A stretch of DNA of 64,000 nucleotides, taken from contig JAENYP010000001.1 of the NCBI GenBank assembly GCA_016841725.1, forward strand, positions 1-64,000, written 5' to 3'. Positions 49,059 to 61,883 of the stretch are shown piece by piece (the stretch's first letter is position 1; every line of letters begins with the position of its first letter). This DNA is from Thermincola carboxydiphila (GTDB taxonomy: Bacteria > Bacillota > Thermincolia > Thermincolales > UBA2595). The notes below the pieces were generated by a model. The model did no database searches, had not been told where the DNA came from, and worked only from the letters and a program-made list of their open reading frames with translations. The position numbers and the translations under genes are program-made.

Positions 49059-49386
49059 CTCTCGGAAATAGAATTTCCTGTATTTTTAGGGCTCTACGCC
49101 TAGACTTCTTTTTCCCTCCGACATCGGCTTCGGAAATGACTGTGGAATTTGGTGAGGTGTTGTACAAGATTTTCCTTGCACTGACGCCGTGAGAAATGTT
49201 ACCGCAGTTCCGCTAAGCGAAGTCCGGGACGCGGTGCCATGGACGGCCCGCGCCGCCACTGAGCCACGGAAGGCGAATTGGCGGTGTTCCCGGACTTCGC
49301 CAGGAACAAGGTTAGATTTCTCCGGCGACAGTGCGGAAAATCGCTACAACAGCTCACCATATGCCATTCCCGGTCATTTCCGAGAG
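49059..49386. repeat. Foldback repeat element, copy A, between motE and fliK
   Basis: The core (about 49131-49382) is a copy of the element at 61060-61310 in the same orientation, with most positions identical over 250 bp. An outer inverted repeat CTCTCGGAAAT (49059-49069) pairs with ATTTCCGAGAG (49376-49386). Inside are nested inverted repeats, including GCGAAGTCCGGGA against TCCCGGACTTCGC and GAGAAAT against ATTTCTC. It ends one base from the motE stop codon. No gene is present, so the fla/che transcript must cross it. Confidence 0.88.
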
Positions 49387-49387
49387 C

Positions 49388-49966
49388 CTATTGTTTCATC
49401 TGATCTACAATATCTGCTGCTTTCTCCGGGTCCATGGCGCTGAGAATTTTGGCAGCCTGTTCACTGTCAAGGTACTGCAGAATCCCGATGGTGACCTCAT
49501 CAGCAAGACTATTCATTATATTTACTGCAGCTTCGGGTTTCATTTCAGCATAATATTCTGCCAGCTTCTGATAGCTGACCTTGGCTCCCTCCTGCTGCTC
49601 CTGAAGACTCTTTAGCGATTCCAGTGTGCCTTTGAGACTCTCGCGTTCTTCCAGGAGACCCTGTTTTTCGGTATTCACAATCTCCAACTGTTTTGCTATC
49701 TCACCAGACTGTTTTTCAAGCTTTTGCACTTGGTCTTTAAGCTTTTTATTTTCCTCTTCCAAGGGGTTGGGTGGAGCTTTTTTTTCGTCCTTTTTATCAT
49801 CCTTTACTTCTTCCGCGGGTATCATTTTCCCGACGACAGGAATGCTGCCTGCCGTTTTCCGGACATCAAGCACTGCCAGCCAGTCCAGCACCCAGACGGC
49901 TCCTGCAACTATGCCAAGAATCAGTATTATTAATAGAATTCTGGAAAATATCCTTTTCACCCGCAC
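49388..49966 (-). CDS. ylxF: MotE/YlxF family flagellar protein
   Basis: 192 residues from a GTG start. One N-terminal membrane helix (about 9-30), a Lys/Glu linker, a long coiled coil (about 70-125) and a C-terminal MgtE_N-like helical domain (YYAEMKPEAAVNIMNSLADEVTIGILQYLDSEQAAKILSAMDPEKAADIV). This matches YlxF of B. subtilis and MotE, a stator chaperone in other bacteria. It lies between fliJ and fliK. Confidence 0.85.
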   Translation of the reverse strand: MRVKRIFSRILLIILILGIVAGAVWVLDWLAVLDVRKTAGSIPVVGKMIPAEEVKDDKKDEKKAPPNPLEEENKKLKDQVQKLEKQSGEIAKQLEIVNTEKQGLLEERESLKGTLESLKSLQEQQEGAKVSYQKLAEYYAEMKPEAAVNIMNSLADEVTIGILQYLDSEQAAKILSAMDPEKAADIVDQMKQ

Positions 49967-58059: not shown

Positions 58060-59460
58060 TTATAAGATATAACGGCTTAGGTCCTGGTTTTGAACAACAT
58101 CCTGAAGTTTATTGCGAACATATTCACTATCAACCGCAATATCTTTTACCTCGATATCAGGCGCTTCAAACGCAATATCCTCCAATAATTTCTCTAAAAT
58201 TGTATGTAAACGTCGAGCGCCGATATTTTCTGTCTGTTCATTAACAGTATAAGCTATTTTAGCTATTTCATCAAGAGAATTTTCAGTAAATTTTAAGCTG
58301 ACCCCTTCTGTTTCCAGCAAAGCTGTATATTGTTTAATCAGGGCATTCTGAGGTTCAGTAAGAATCTGCTTAAAATCAGCCTCGGTAAGACTTTCCAGTT
58401 CAACACGGATTGGAAAACGACCCTGCAGTTCGGGAATCAGGTCTGATGGTTTGGAAACATGAAAAGCCCCGGCTGCAATAAATAGGATATAATCCGTTTT
58501 TACCGGCCCATATTTTGTCATTACTGTAGAGCCTTCCACAATAGGCAGGATATCCCGCTGCACCCCGCCCCTGGATACATCAGGACCGGACCCGCTTTCC
58601 TGTCCCGCTATTTTATCTATTTCATCAAGGAAAATAATCCCAGACTGTTCAGCACGTTCTACTGCTATGGAAACAACTTCATCCATATCGATAAGCTTTT
58701 GTGCCTCCTGCTGGACCAGTATTTTACGCGCTTCCCCGACAGTAAGCTTGCGGCGCTTCTTCTTTTTAGGAAACATTCCGCCCAGCATATCCTGGATATT
58801 TATCCCCATTTCTTCGACACCGGCGCCTGTAAAGACCTCAACCATGGAGGTCCCTGCATCCTCAACCTCTATCTCTAGATACTCATCCTCCAGTTTGCCT
58901 GCAGCCAGCTTTTCCTTAATGGTACCCCGTTCGAACTGCAGCCTCTTGATGTGCTGGCTGTGTTCATCATCCGTGGTCTGATCCTGCTGCTGGCCGCCCC
59001 CGAAAAAAACCTCAAAAGGGTTTTTGACCGCGCCATCCTTCTCCGGCAGCGGCGCCAAAAGCTCAATTATCCTGAGTTCCGCCAGTTCTTCAGCCTTTTC
59101 TTCAACAGCAGAAATCTTTTCATTTTTCACCACCCTGATGGCGGTCTCCACCAGGTCCCTGATTATGGACTCCACATCTCTGCCCACATACCCGACCTCA
59201 GTAAATTTGCTTGCCTCAACTTTGACAAAAGGAGCATTGACAAGCTTCGCCAAGCGCCGGGCAATCTCTGTTTTGCCAACACCGGTAGGTCCAATCATAA
59301 TAATATTCTTTGGTACAACTTCATCCCGCAATTCGGGAGTCAGTTTTTTTCTTCTGAACCTATTTCGCAAAGCAATAGCTACAGATCTTTTTGCTTTGTG
59401 TTGGCCAACTATGTATTTATCCAATTCTGAAACTATTTTTTTGGGGGTTAAGTCTTGCAT
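58060..59460 (-). CDS. hslU: HslU (ClpY) ATPase subunit
   Basis: 466 residues. Walker [18 protein letters not shown] (about 53-69), Walker [13 protein letters not shown], the inserted I domain (about 105-240) and C-terminal AAA lid with [22 protein letters not shown]. It unfolds substrates for HslV. AGGAGG lies before the ATG. Its normal partner hslV is 1.9 kb away because of the inserted nuclease gene and repeat. Confidence 0.97.
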
Positions 59461-59536
59461 TAAGAATCATTCCTCCTAAGATTTACATCCGTATTTAGCA
59501 AAACGAACTATTTATCGAAGGTTACTCTTTTGAACT

Positions 59537-60976
59537 TTAACTTACCTTGTTGCTCTCTTCAGTCATTTTTAAAGATAATTGATATTCGATGGCTTCGGGC
59601 ATTTTTATGAATTTCACAGTAGGGTCTTTGCTCAGCACATACTTTTCGATTTCATCAATAGGAATTTTAAAAAACTCTTTATACCTGTTAGTTTTGTTCA
59701 AACGATTCTTCTCAAAAAACCTATGTAAATCCCTTTCCCTTTCATAACAATTCTCACTAAAAATCAGGGCATGAGCATCAAATCTAAATGGTACAGAAGC
59801 GTTACAAAGTTCATCTATTCTTTCATAAGGGTTAAGCCTTCTAGTAGTACCTATTTTATAAACATCTTCTCCAAATGCCCCAATGTTTGAAATTATATAA
59901 ACATAACCTGCTTTGTTTTCAAATAGTCTTGTAAATGTTTGTTTTTCTTCCTCTAACCTCTCAATCTTTTTCGTTAACTCAGAAATTTTCCTTTCGTATT
60001 TTTCCCTTTCTTTTTCAGTTGATTTAAGCAGTTCTGCTCTTATTTTGCTCATTTCATTTTGAAAATGCGTTTGCTCCTTAAGAATTCTTTTCATTTCTCG
60101 TTCATACTCTTTTTTCGCTAATTCTTCATCTTTTTCAATTTCTCTTTGTTTTGCTAAAGCCTGACGTTCATCCCGTAATTTTACTTCATAATCAAAAACC
60201 AAGTCAAGCTCTTGATATTTCAATGTGAGGTAATAATTTGAAATTCCCATATTTAAAATGCTTACCATCTCATTAATTGATTCATAAGATTTCAAGATTC
60301 TATCTTTTCTTGCAGAATACTTAGAGTAGTACTTAACACTTGCAATTATGGCTTCACATTCACCATTAAAAGCCCTGAGAGCCATTTTACGAACTCTATT
60401 TACAAGTTTGTTGCCTTCTCTTTTGCTCCCGTCAACAGTCCAATTACCATTGACCACTAGTGCTTGTTTGTTTTTTATCGCTTCTTTTTGCCCGTCACGG
60501 ACAGCCTCAAGTCGTTCTTTATATAATGTAGAATTAGTAAGATTATATTTGGGCTCATAAAGTCCGTATGCGCTAGGTATTTCTGGTCCTTCTTCTAAAG
60601 CGTTTTCATATTGTTCTTCAAATCTTTTTAATTTTTTCTCTAGTTCAATTAATTGGTTCTGATATCTCAGTTCTTCTTTCTTCTGTTTGTCTATCTTTAA
60701 AGTTAAGCTTTCAAGTTCCTCTAAATCATGTATTCTTGATTCTATTTTAATAACTTCTTTTTTCTTTTGTTCTAACTCTATTTCTTTATTTTTGATTTGA
60801 CTTTCTTTAGTTAAAATATAATTGCTCTTCTCAACAATTATAGATTCTTTTTCTTTAATTTCATTCTTTTTAGTTTTAATCTCTTCTTGTACCAGTTCCA
60901 ACTGTTTTTCCAACTCTGTAAGAGCCATGGACTTTGTCTTATCAAATATTCTCGCGATAAATGTTTTAATAGACAT
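59537..60976 (-). CDS. DUF4041 / GIY-YIG nuclease protein, candidate anti-phage gene
   Basis: 479 residues. Order: long coiled coil (about 18-128), DUF4041-like region (about 135-265, with LYEPKYNLTNSTLYKERLEAV and NGECEAIIASVKYYSKYS), second coiled coil (about 266-352), and a T5orf172/Mug113-type GIY-YIG domain (about 357-440). Catalytic candidates are Tyr358/Tyr360 in GYVYIIS, Arg379-Arg380 and Glu413/Glu415. DUF4041-GIY-YIG proteins include the membrane-associated phage-entry nuclease SNIPE; here no clear membrane helix is seen. The gene is visibly AT-rich compared with its neighbours, has its own GGTGGGGG ribosome site, and splits hslV from hslU, all signs of transfer. Confidence 0.8.
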   Translation of the reverse strand: MSIKTFIARIFDKTKSMALTELEKQLELVQEEIKTKKNEIKEKESIIVEKSNYILTKESQIKNKEIELEQKKKEVIKIESRIHDLEELESLTLKIDKQKKEELRYQNQLIELEKKLKRFEEQYENALEEGPEIPSAYGLYEPKYNLTNSTLYKERLEAVRDGQKEAIKNKQALVVNGNWTVDGSKREGNKLVNRVRKMALRAFNGECEAIIASVKYYSKYSARKDRILKSYESINEMVSILNMGISNYYLTLKYQELDLVFDYEVKLRDERQALAKQREIEKDEELAKKEYEREMKRILKEQTHFQNEMSKIRAELLKSTEKEREKYERKISELTKKIERLEEEKQTFTRLFENKAGYVYIISNIGAFGEDVYKIGTTRRLNPYERIDELCNASVPFRFDAHALIFSENCYERERDLHRFFEKNRLNKTNRYKEFFKIPIDEIEKYVLSKDPTVKFIKMPEAIEYQLSLKMTEESNKVS

Positions 60977-61059
60977 TTTGAACCCCCACCAATTCAGTTC
61001 TCAGTAGAGTACTTTACTCAATGGTAAATTCTAGCTCTTTATTTTCATTCATTAGGTTC

Positions 61060-61310
61060 TGGAAATGACCGCGGAATCTGGTGAGATATTGTACAAGATT
61101 TCCCTTGGACTGACGCCGTGAGAAATCCACCGCAGTTCCGCTAAGCGAAGTCCGGGACGCGGGCCACGGATGGCCCGCGCCGCCACTGAGCCACGGACGG
61201 CGAATTGGCGGTGTTCCCAGACTTCGCCAGGAACAAGGTTAGATTTCTCCGGCAGCAGTCCGGAAAATCGGTACAATATCTCACCAGATTTCATTCCCGG
61301 TTATTTCCGA
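61060..61310. repeat. Foldback repeat element, copy B, downstream of hslV
   Basis: 251 bp, same orientation as copy A. The ends are inverted repeats: GGAAATGACC...ATCTGGTGAGATATTGTAC (61061-61094) against GTACAATATCTCACCAGAT...TTATTTCC (61271-61308), 19 bp of which match perfectly. Internal pairs include GCGGGCC-ACGGAT-GGCCCGC, GAGAAATC/GATTTCTC and GCGAAGTC/GACTTCGC. It lies between hslV and the nuclease gene. Short reading frames inside are shared by both copies but lack ribosome sites. Confidence 0.9.
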
Positions 61311-61352
61311 AAGCCCAGTCCTTGGAGTCAGGTTCTCCACAAAATTACCCCC

Positions 61353-61883
61353 CTAAAGTTCTTCGATTGATATATTGGAATTGGTATATATGCAGATTGA
61401 TGCAGCAATTTCCAGGGCCTCCCTGGCTATATCCGAAGCGCTCAACTGTGTATGGCTGACCAAAGCCCTGGCTGCAGCAAGGGCATAAGCCCCCCCGGAA
61501 CCGATAGCTGTTACATTATCATCTGGTTCGATAACCTCACCGTTACCCGATATAATCAGCAGGTGTTCCGCATCAGCAACTATCAGCAGGGCTTCAAGCT
61601 TACGCAGGAACTTATCCAGACGCCATTCCTTGGCAAGTTCCACTGCCGCTCTGGGGAGGTTGCCCCGGAACTCTTCCAGCTTCTTCTCAAACTTTTCAAA
61701 CAGGGTAAAGGCATCAGCCACTGAACCGGCAAAGCCGGCAACCACCTTATTATTATACAAACGCCGGACTTTTTTGGCCTTTTGCTTTAAAACCATATTC
61801 CCGCCAAAAGTAACCTGTCCATCACCGGCTACAGCTACTTTATCATTCAACCTGACAGCAACGATGGTTGTTCCCTGAAACAT
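61353..61883 (-). CDS. hslV: HslV (ClpQ) protease subunit
   Basis: 176 residues. The N terminus [11 protein letters not shown] gives the catalytic Thr after removal of four residues, followed by [26 protein letters not shown] and [17 protein letters not shown], the proteasome-like core with the conserved Lys. The C terminus has [14 protein letters not shown] and ends in NISIEEL. It forms the peptidase of HslUV. xerC is just upstream. Confidence 0.97.

Follow-up and report, generated by a model that had tools for sequence, protein, structure and literature searches.

A nuclease gene separates hslV from hslU in the 64,000-nucleotide stretch of Thermincola carboxydiphila DNA analyzed here (the window). 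Its product is probably a SNIPE-family anti-phage nuclease that lacks a transmembrane (TM) helix and lies on the membrane through its N-terminal helix, the gene having been acquired by a crossover inside hslU. Sequence, architecture, and the catalytic residue place the protein in the SNIPE family, and comparison with related genomes establishes the gene as a recent acquisition of a single lineage that came with a foreign hslU 5' end. By analogy with the family, the protein would defend its host by cutting phage DNA as it enters the cell.

A SNIPE-family protein by sequence and architecture

The gene is a 479-residue open reading frame with an ATG start, six bases downstream of a G-rich ribosome-binding stretch, GGTGGGGG. 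The initial annotation had described a coiled-coil/DUF4041/GIY-YIG protein at this position, and a profile search bears this out, as DUF4041 (PF13250; 2.2e-15, 56.7 bits, cut-off 27) and the GIY-YIG-type family MUG113 (PF13455, residues 373–446; 1.6e-15, 57.8 bits, cut-off 22.3) were both matched above their Pfam cut-offs. The PADLOC PD-Lambda-1 model PDLC03976 spans residues 19–477 (8e-118), and phrog_1847 (PHROG 1847) spans residues 29–477 (2.9e-119). PD-Lambda-1 has since been renamed SNIPE (PMC13190303). In phage record PV340555, the E. coli SNIPE copy has E223, N250, L253, W257, E264, and E414, exactly as that paper names them, and Glu414 of the window protein aligns with the catalytic Glu414 of this copy at 31% identity. 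The SNIPE-type architecture proposed on first reading was therefore confirmed by a full-length profile match, a DUF4041 domain, and a C-terminal GIY-YIG domain with its catalytic glutamate.

E. coli SNIPE (from a PhiR26_1-type prophage, XSB42081.1; PMC13190303) shares the order of parts, namely an N-terminal region, coiled coil, DUF4041, helix, and GIY-YIG, and can be aligned with the window protein over the full core. However, it has a TM helix at residues ~5–24 (hydropathy 3.37) where the window protein has none, and the window protein differs at two positions whose mutation broadened the range of the E. coli protein, with K in place of E223 and D in place of W257. A stand-alone, TM-less SNIPE gene among housekeeping genes, as in the window, is also found in S. 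agalactiae (37% identity), although at a different site; this Streptococcus homolog, in a record listed as a plasmid (L031:2770–4014), has purK on one side and, on the other, a hypothetical gene that precedes purB. Elsewhere, on a Sinorhizobium plasmid (L034:2764–4997), a DUF4041 gene is followed on the same strand by a thermonuclease-family gene. The Streptococcus thermophilus PD-Lambda-1 confers more than 3 logs of protection on a Gram-positive host (PMC12322248).

An AlphaFold2 model built on a 30-sequence alignment (mean pLDDT 84, pTM 0.53) gave the anatomy listed in the table below. Its first helix begins at residue 3, with low confidence over residues 1–10; DUF4041 and its surroundings occupy residues 149–245, and in this confident model a long helix separates DUF4041 from the nuclease. 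The GIY-YIG residues Y360, Y373, K374-I-G376, R386, E414, N427, and N430 are all kept. In a Foldseek search, the best viral match was a siphovirus 'helicase' (369 columns aligned, 4e-19), while no solved structure matched below 0.001, Slx1 GIY-YIG nucleases being among the weak matches; the sequence search for solved relatives returned none.

Table. Features of the hslV–hslU locus, in window coordinates
Feature	Position	Strand	Basis
hslU (flank)	58060..59460	-	Pfam AAA_2; G002 ortholog 94% identical
Foreign hslU 5' end, about 150 nt, co-acquired with the nuclease	59311..59460	-	Identity and GC shift
Spacer containing AGGAGG, the ribosome-binding site of the current hslU start	59461..59536	-	Sequence
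TM-less SNIPE / PD-Lambda-1 nuclease gene	59537..60976	-	479-aa ORF, PADLOC, PHROG, Pfam
GIY-YIG nuclease domain, about residues 357–446	59639..59908	-	MUG113, invariant columns, Glu414 alignment
Second long helix / coiled coil, between DUF4041 and the nuclease domain, residues 247–353	59918..60238	-	AlphaFold2
DUF4041 domain, residues 197–253	60218..60388	-	PF13250 2.2e-15; K164, K197, R201 conserved
First coiled coil, a single helix, residues 3–129	60590..60970	-	AlphaFold2, pLDDT about 80–89 at residues 20–120
Candidate amphipathic membrane anchor, residues 1–20, MSIKTFIARIFDKTKSMALT	60917..60976	-	Discriminant score, AlphaFold2 helix
Copy of the dispersed ~263-bp repeat with terminal inverted repeats, outside the nuclease gene	61053..61315	.	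Genome comparison
Relic of the native hslU start (GTGGAGAACCTGACTCCAAGG, VENLTPR)	61320..61340	-	G001 junction match in sequence and spacing
hslV (flank)	61353..61883	-	Pfam Proteasome 1.4e-31

The N-terminus, membrane anchoring, and the state of the nuclease

The early observation that the protein has no evident membrane helix held, since the best 19-residue hydropathy in its first ~130 residues is 0.40, compared with 1.9–3.4 for TM-bearing members on the same measure. The structure prediction places a helix from residue 3 onward. The accompanying suggestion that it might anchor differently is supported to the extent that an alternative anchor at the N-terminus is plausible, but the absence of a TM helix is not in itself new. 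It has already been described for 34% of SNIPE homologs, against 66% with a predicted TM helix, and some homologs carry DivIVA-like, type III ATPase-like, PH, or DUF4428 regions; amphipathic helices are not mentioned in that paper (PMC13190303). Given that E. coli SNIPE without its TM helix (delta-TM) is toxic because its nuclease cuts host DNA (PMC13190303), a natural TM-less SNIPE should need some other restraint.

Hydrophobic moment alone was rejected as an anchor test because it was too weak for the window N-terminus (shuffle p about 0.08), the value being reached by 57 of the 457 stretches of the protein. A standard lipid-helix measure is the discriminant D = 0.944 x moment + 0.33 x charge. 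On this scale, windows starting at residues 1–3 of MSIKTFIARIFDKTKSMALT score 1.36–1.39, and no other windows of the protein combine D>1.34 with hydrophobicity H>0.3. The known membrane-binding starts of MinE and PspA score below the threshold of 1.34, so the discriminant lacks sensitivity and is not conclusive. The start of E. coli MinE resembles that of the window protein in having a short hydrophobic N-terminal stretch followed by basic residues, a likeness in physical character for which no homology is claimed. The role of the MinE membrane-targeting sequence has been described (PMC5473585). The odds that the N-terminal helix of ~20 residues serves as a membrane anchor are about even, and the helix may be nothing more than the place where the coiled coil begins.

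The family as a whole offers a wider view of this region. Of 91 homologs that could be read over their whole length, 38 contain a TM-like stretch, and the majority of the remainder open with a short patch, MGILDIFK, MSFSDYLK, and MGLFGLSKK being examples; TM helices were called by a plain hydropathy threshold and starts were chosen by rule, so that single cases can err. A strict M[GSA]hxDhxK-type start occurs in 18 of 35 nonredundant TM-less homologs, whereas among the controls, TM-less proteins encoded at the same loci, it occurs in 1 of 141; the Fisher value of this contrast overstates independence because the members are related. On the core-domain tree, the TM/no-TM label changes 17 times, with at least 11 of these changes forced by well-supported branches; one six-member clade, for instance, contains three TM proteins (L038, L043, L112) and three with the patch (L050, L051, L064). 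Two properties of the family and one of the window protein are new: TM-less homologs often begin with a short hydrophobic and basic patch resembling M[GS]hhDhhK, TM and TM-less N-termini alternate repeatedly on the SNIPE tree, and the window protein has its only lipid-binding-like helix in its first ~20 residues.

The DUF4041 proteins with an MG[IF]xDIFK-type start (among them L050, L064, L055 from Trichococcus, and L077, L088, and L095 from Pseudomonas) have the same core as the window protein, no TM helix, and likewise a short hydrophobic start with basic residues. The window start, MSIKTFIARIFDKTKSM, is longer and helical-amphipathic and falls outside their strict motif; the strict N-terminal motif profile does not recognize it, and 31% of controls score as high. 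Tentatively, and at somewhat less than even probability, TM-less SNIPE proteins might constitute a peripheral-membrane class whose anchor is a swappable module: a short N-terminal patch, amphipathic or hydrophobic and basic, would have traded places with a TM helix many times on one DUF4041-GIY-YIG core, and the window protein would be a divergent member that spread between species by recombination inside hslU.

Alternatively, the protein may be unanchored. It would then either stay inactive in the cytoplasm until phage protein or DNA is bound by DUF4041, or be recruited to the membrane through its coiled coil by a partner (DivIVA-like or a host entry protein). The missing TM helix, which it shares with about a third of the family, fits this explanation, as do the auto-inhibition of membrane-located E. 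coli SNIPE towards host DNA (PMC13190303) and the continuity of the N-terminal helix with the coiled coil in the AlphaFold2 model. We nevertheless regard it as rather doubtful, given the toxicity of the delta-TM E. coli protein through host-DNA cutting and the lipid-binding-like combination of charge and hydrophobicity, which is confined to the N-terminal 18–20 residues of the protein.

The protein may also have lost its activity. It forms a long branch on the family tree and departs from 4 of 48 near-invariant columns, a number that almost no other member exceeds or equals, and two of these departures (A410C and L413R) lie beside Glu414. For these reasons, loss of activity is possible; a PD-Lambda-1 homolog 98.5% identical to an active one is known to be inactive (PMC12322248). 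That the gene is a decaying, inactive SNIPE copy still awaiting loss is nonetheless improbable, as its frame is open over 479 codons and every catalytic column is kept, the invariant columns of a 30-member alignment including the GIY-YIG set.

Recent acquisition, probably by recombination inside hslU

The surroundings of the nuclease gene are conserved. The nuclease gene follows hslV and precedes hslU on the same strand, with codY downstream of the hslVU locus and a tyrosine recombinase gene upstream. The initial annotation regarded the separation of hslV and hslU as unusual, and the comparison agrees: the hslV–hslU gap is 1,895 bp here, whereas 54 other genomes of the phylum have gaps of 11–220 bp (median 21), and in eight relatives of the same family it is 14–31 bp, but 220 bp in the congener G002. 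These 54 genomes, with no insertion in the gap, rule out the site as an insertion hot spot. The nuclease gene is absent from all 9 other genomes of the class, and true family members (E below 1e-100) occur in 7 genomes of a 398-genome phylum sample. It is also AT-rich, as had been pointed out, with a GC content of 31.2% against a window mean of 46.4% (sd 2.9%, 1,440-bp stretches); none of the 1,440-bp stretches sampled from the window falls below it.

The inserted DNA was initially placed at 59537–61310, a range that correctly contains the nuclease gene but stops short at one side, since the foreign DNA reaches about 59311, within hslU. Over its first 150 nt, hslU is 71% identical to its counterpart in G002, the nearest relative, whereas the remainder is 88–98% identical in a sliding comparison, and the switch falls near nt 142–150. 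Composition changes at the same point: the first ~150 nt have 37% GC, compared with 48–50% for the same stretch in two congeners, while beyond them the gene shows about 90% identity to the nearest relative and 46% GC. Directly after hslV, TAGGGGGGTAATTTTGTGGAGAACCTGACTCCAAGG corresponds to the hslV–hslU junction of the congener G001, including its hslU start. In G002, hslU starts with MQDLTP, in contrast to VENLTP in G001, and its 220-bp gap (L017:1281–1500) contains a rearranged piece of a dispersed repeat.

Because hslU is mosaic and a relic of its native start persists after hslV, recombination with foreign DNA carrying the nuclease gene and then an hslU 5' end is indicated. The simplest reading would be one crossover inside hslU and another at or near the hslV side, leaving the old start as a relic. 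With the crossover inside the gene, hslU stayed whole and the direction of the operon was kept. On this reading, there should be a donor in which the nuclease directly precedes hslU; the best match to the hslU 5' end among 398 genomes reaches 76%, so that no donor was found there, and none of about 90 nuclease homologs has hslU or hslV in its neighborhood, with relatives located in prophages, on plasmids, and within a pur operon. Alternatively, the protein could be a GIY-YIG homing endonuclease whose gene invaded the start of hslU, converting the adjacent stretch of that gene. This would explain why a conserved gene pair is interrupted by one nuclease gene accompanied by a co-converted hslU tract, but it is highly improbable in view of the full-length PD-Lambda-1 match including DUF4041, the settings of these homologs, and a site reoccupied in none of the 54 other hslV–hslU gaps.

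The foldback repeat reported alongside the nuclease is real, with 29-nt arms at 61075–61103 and 61262–61290 (86% complementary), but a tie to the nuclease is not supported: the foldback belongs to a separate genome-wide repeat at about 61053–61315. Whole or partial copies of this repeat occupy about 60 places in the present genome, compared with 58 in G002 and 41 in G001. A 52-bp piece (94%) lies in the nuclease-free hslV–hslU gap of G002, and the repeat therefore predates the nuclease. That piece, and the presence of 40–60 pieces per genome in three congeners, led us to reject the foldback as part of a nuclease-carrying mobile element. As a TwoAYGGAY riboregulator (Rfam RF01731) it is marginal: the match is borderline in this copy (43.1 bits, gathering cut-off 43), and none of eight further copies reaches the cut-off. 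The repeat may be MITE-like or REP-like. Another copy of this ~263-bp imperfect palindrome lies at 49132–49388 of the window and has an equally similar (90%) match in G002 (C20:29160), on the same contig as hslVU and perhaps at the same position. The repeat family, which includes many half copies, is rare elsewhere in the bacterial family outside this genome and the two congeners.

Proposed working and significance

SNIPE function requires DUF4041 and Glu414 (PMC13190303), and a comparable mode of action can be proposed for the window protein. Its first ~20 residues would fold into an amphipathic helix that carries positive charge and rests against the cytoplasmic side of the cell membrane, from which the long coiled coil would extend DUF4041 into the cytoplasm. 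As shown for E. coli SNIPE, DUF4041 may bind DNA and the tape-measure or entry machinery of a siphophage as it injects, whereupon the GIY-YIG domain would cut the incoming phage DNA; tethering would keep this nuclease away from the chromosome. The gene itself would have arrived on DNA carrying the first ~150 nt of a foreign hslU, via the crossover inside hslU.

SNIPE, described in 2026, is a defense that distinguishes phage from host DNA by place, with a nuclease waiting at the membrane. The locus provides an example of a lone defense gene entering a conserved operon without breaking it and bringing a copy of its neighbor's 5' end. Given that a third of homologs have no membrane helix, and that some carry DivIVA-like, type III ATPase-like, PH, or DUF4428 regions, the question of how such proteins are anchored would become directly testable by point mutations if the N-terminal patch is common to many TM-less homologs.
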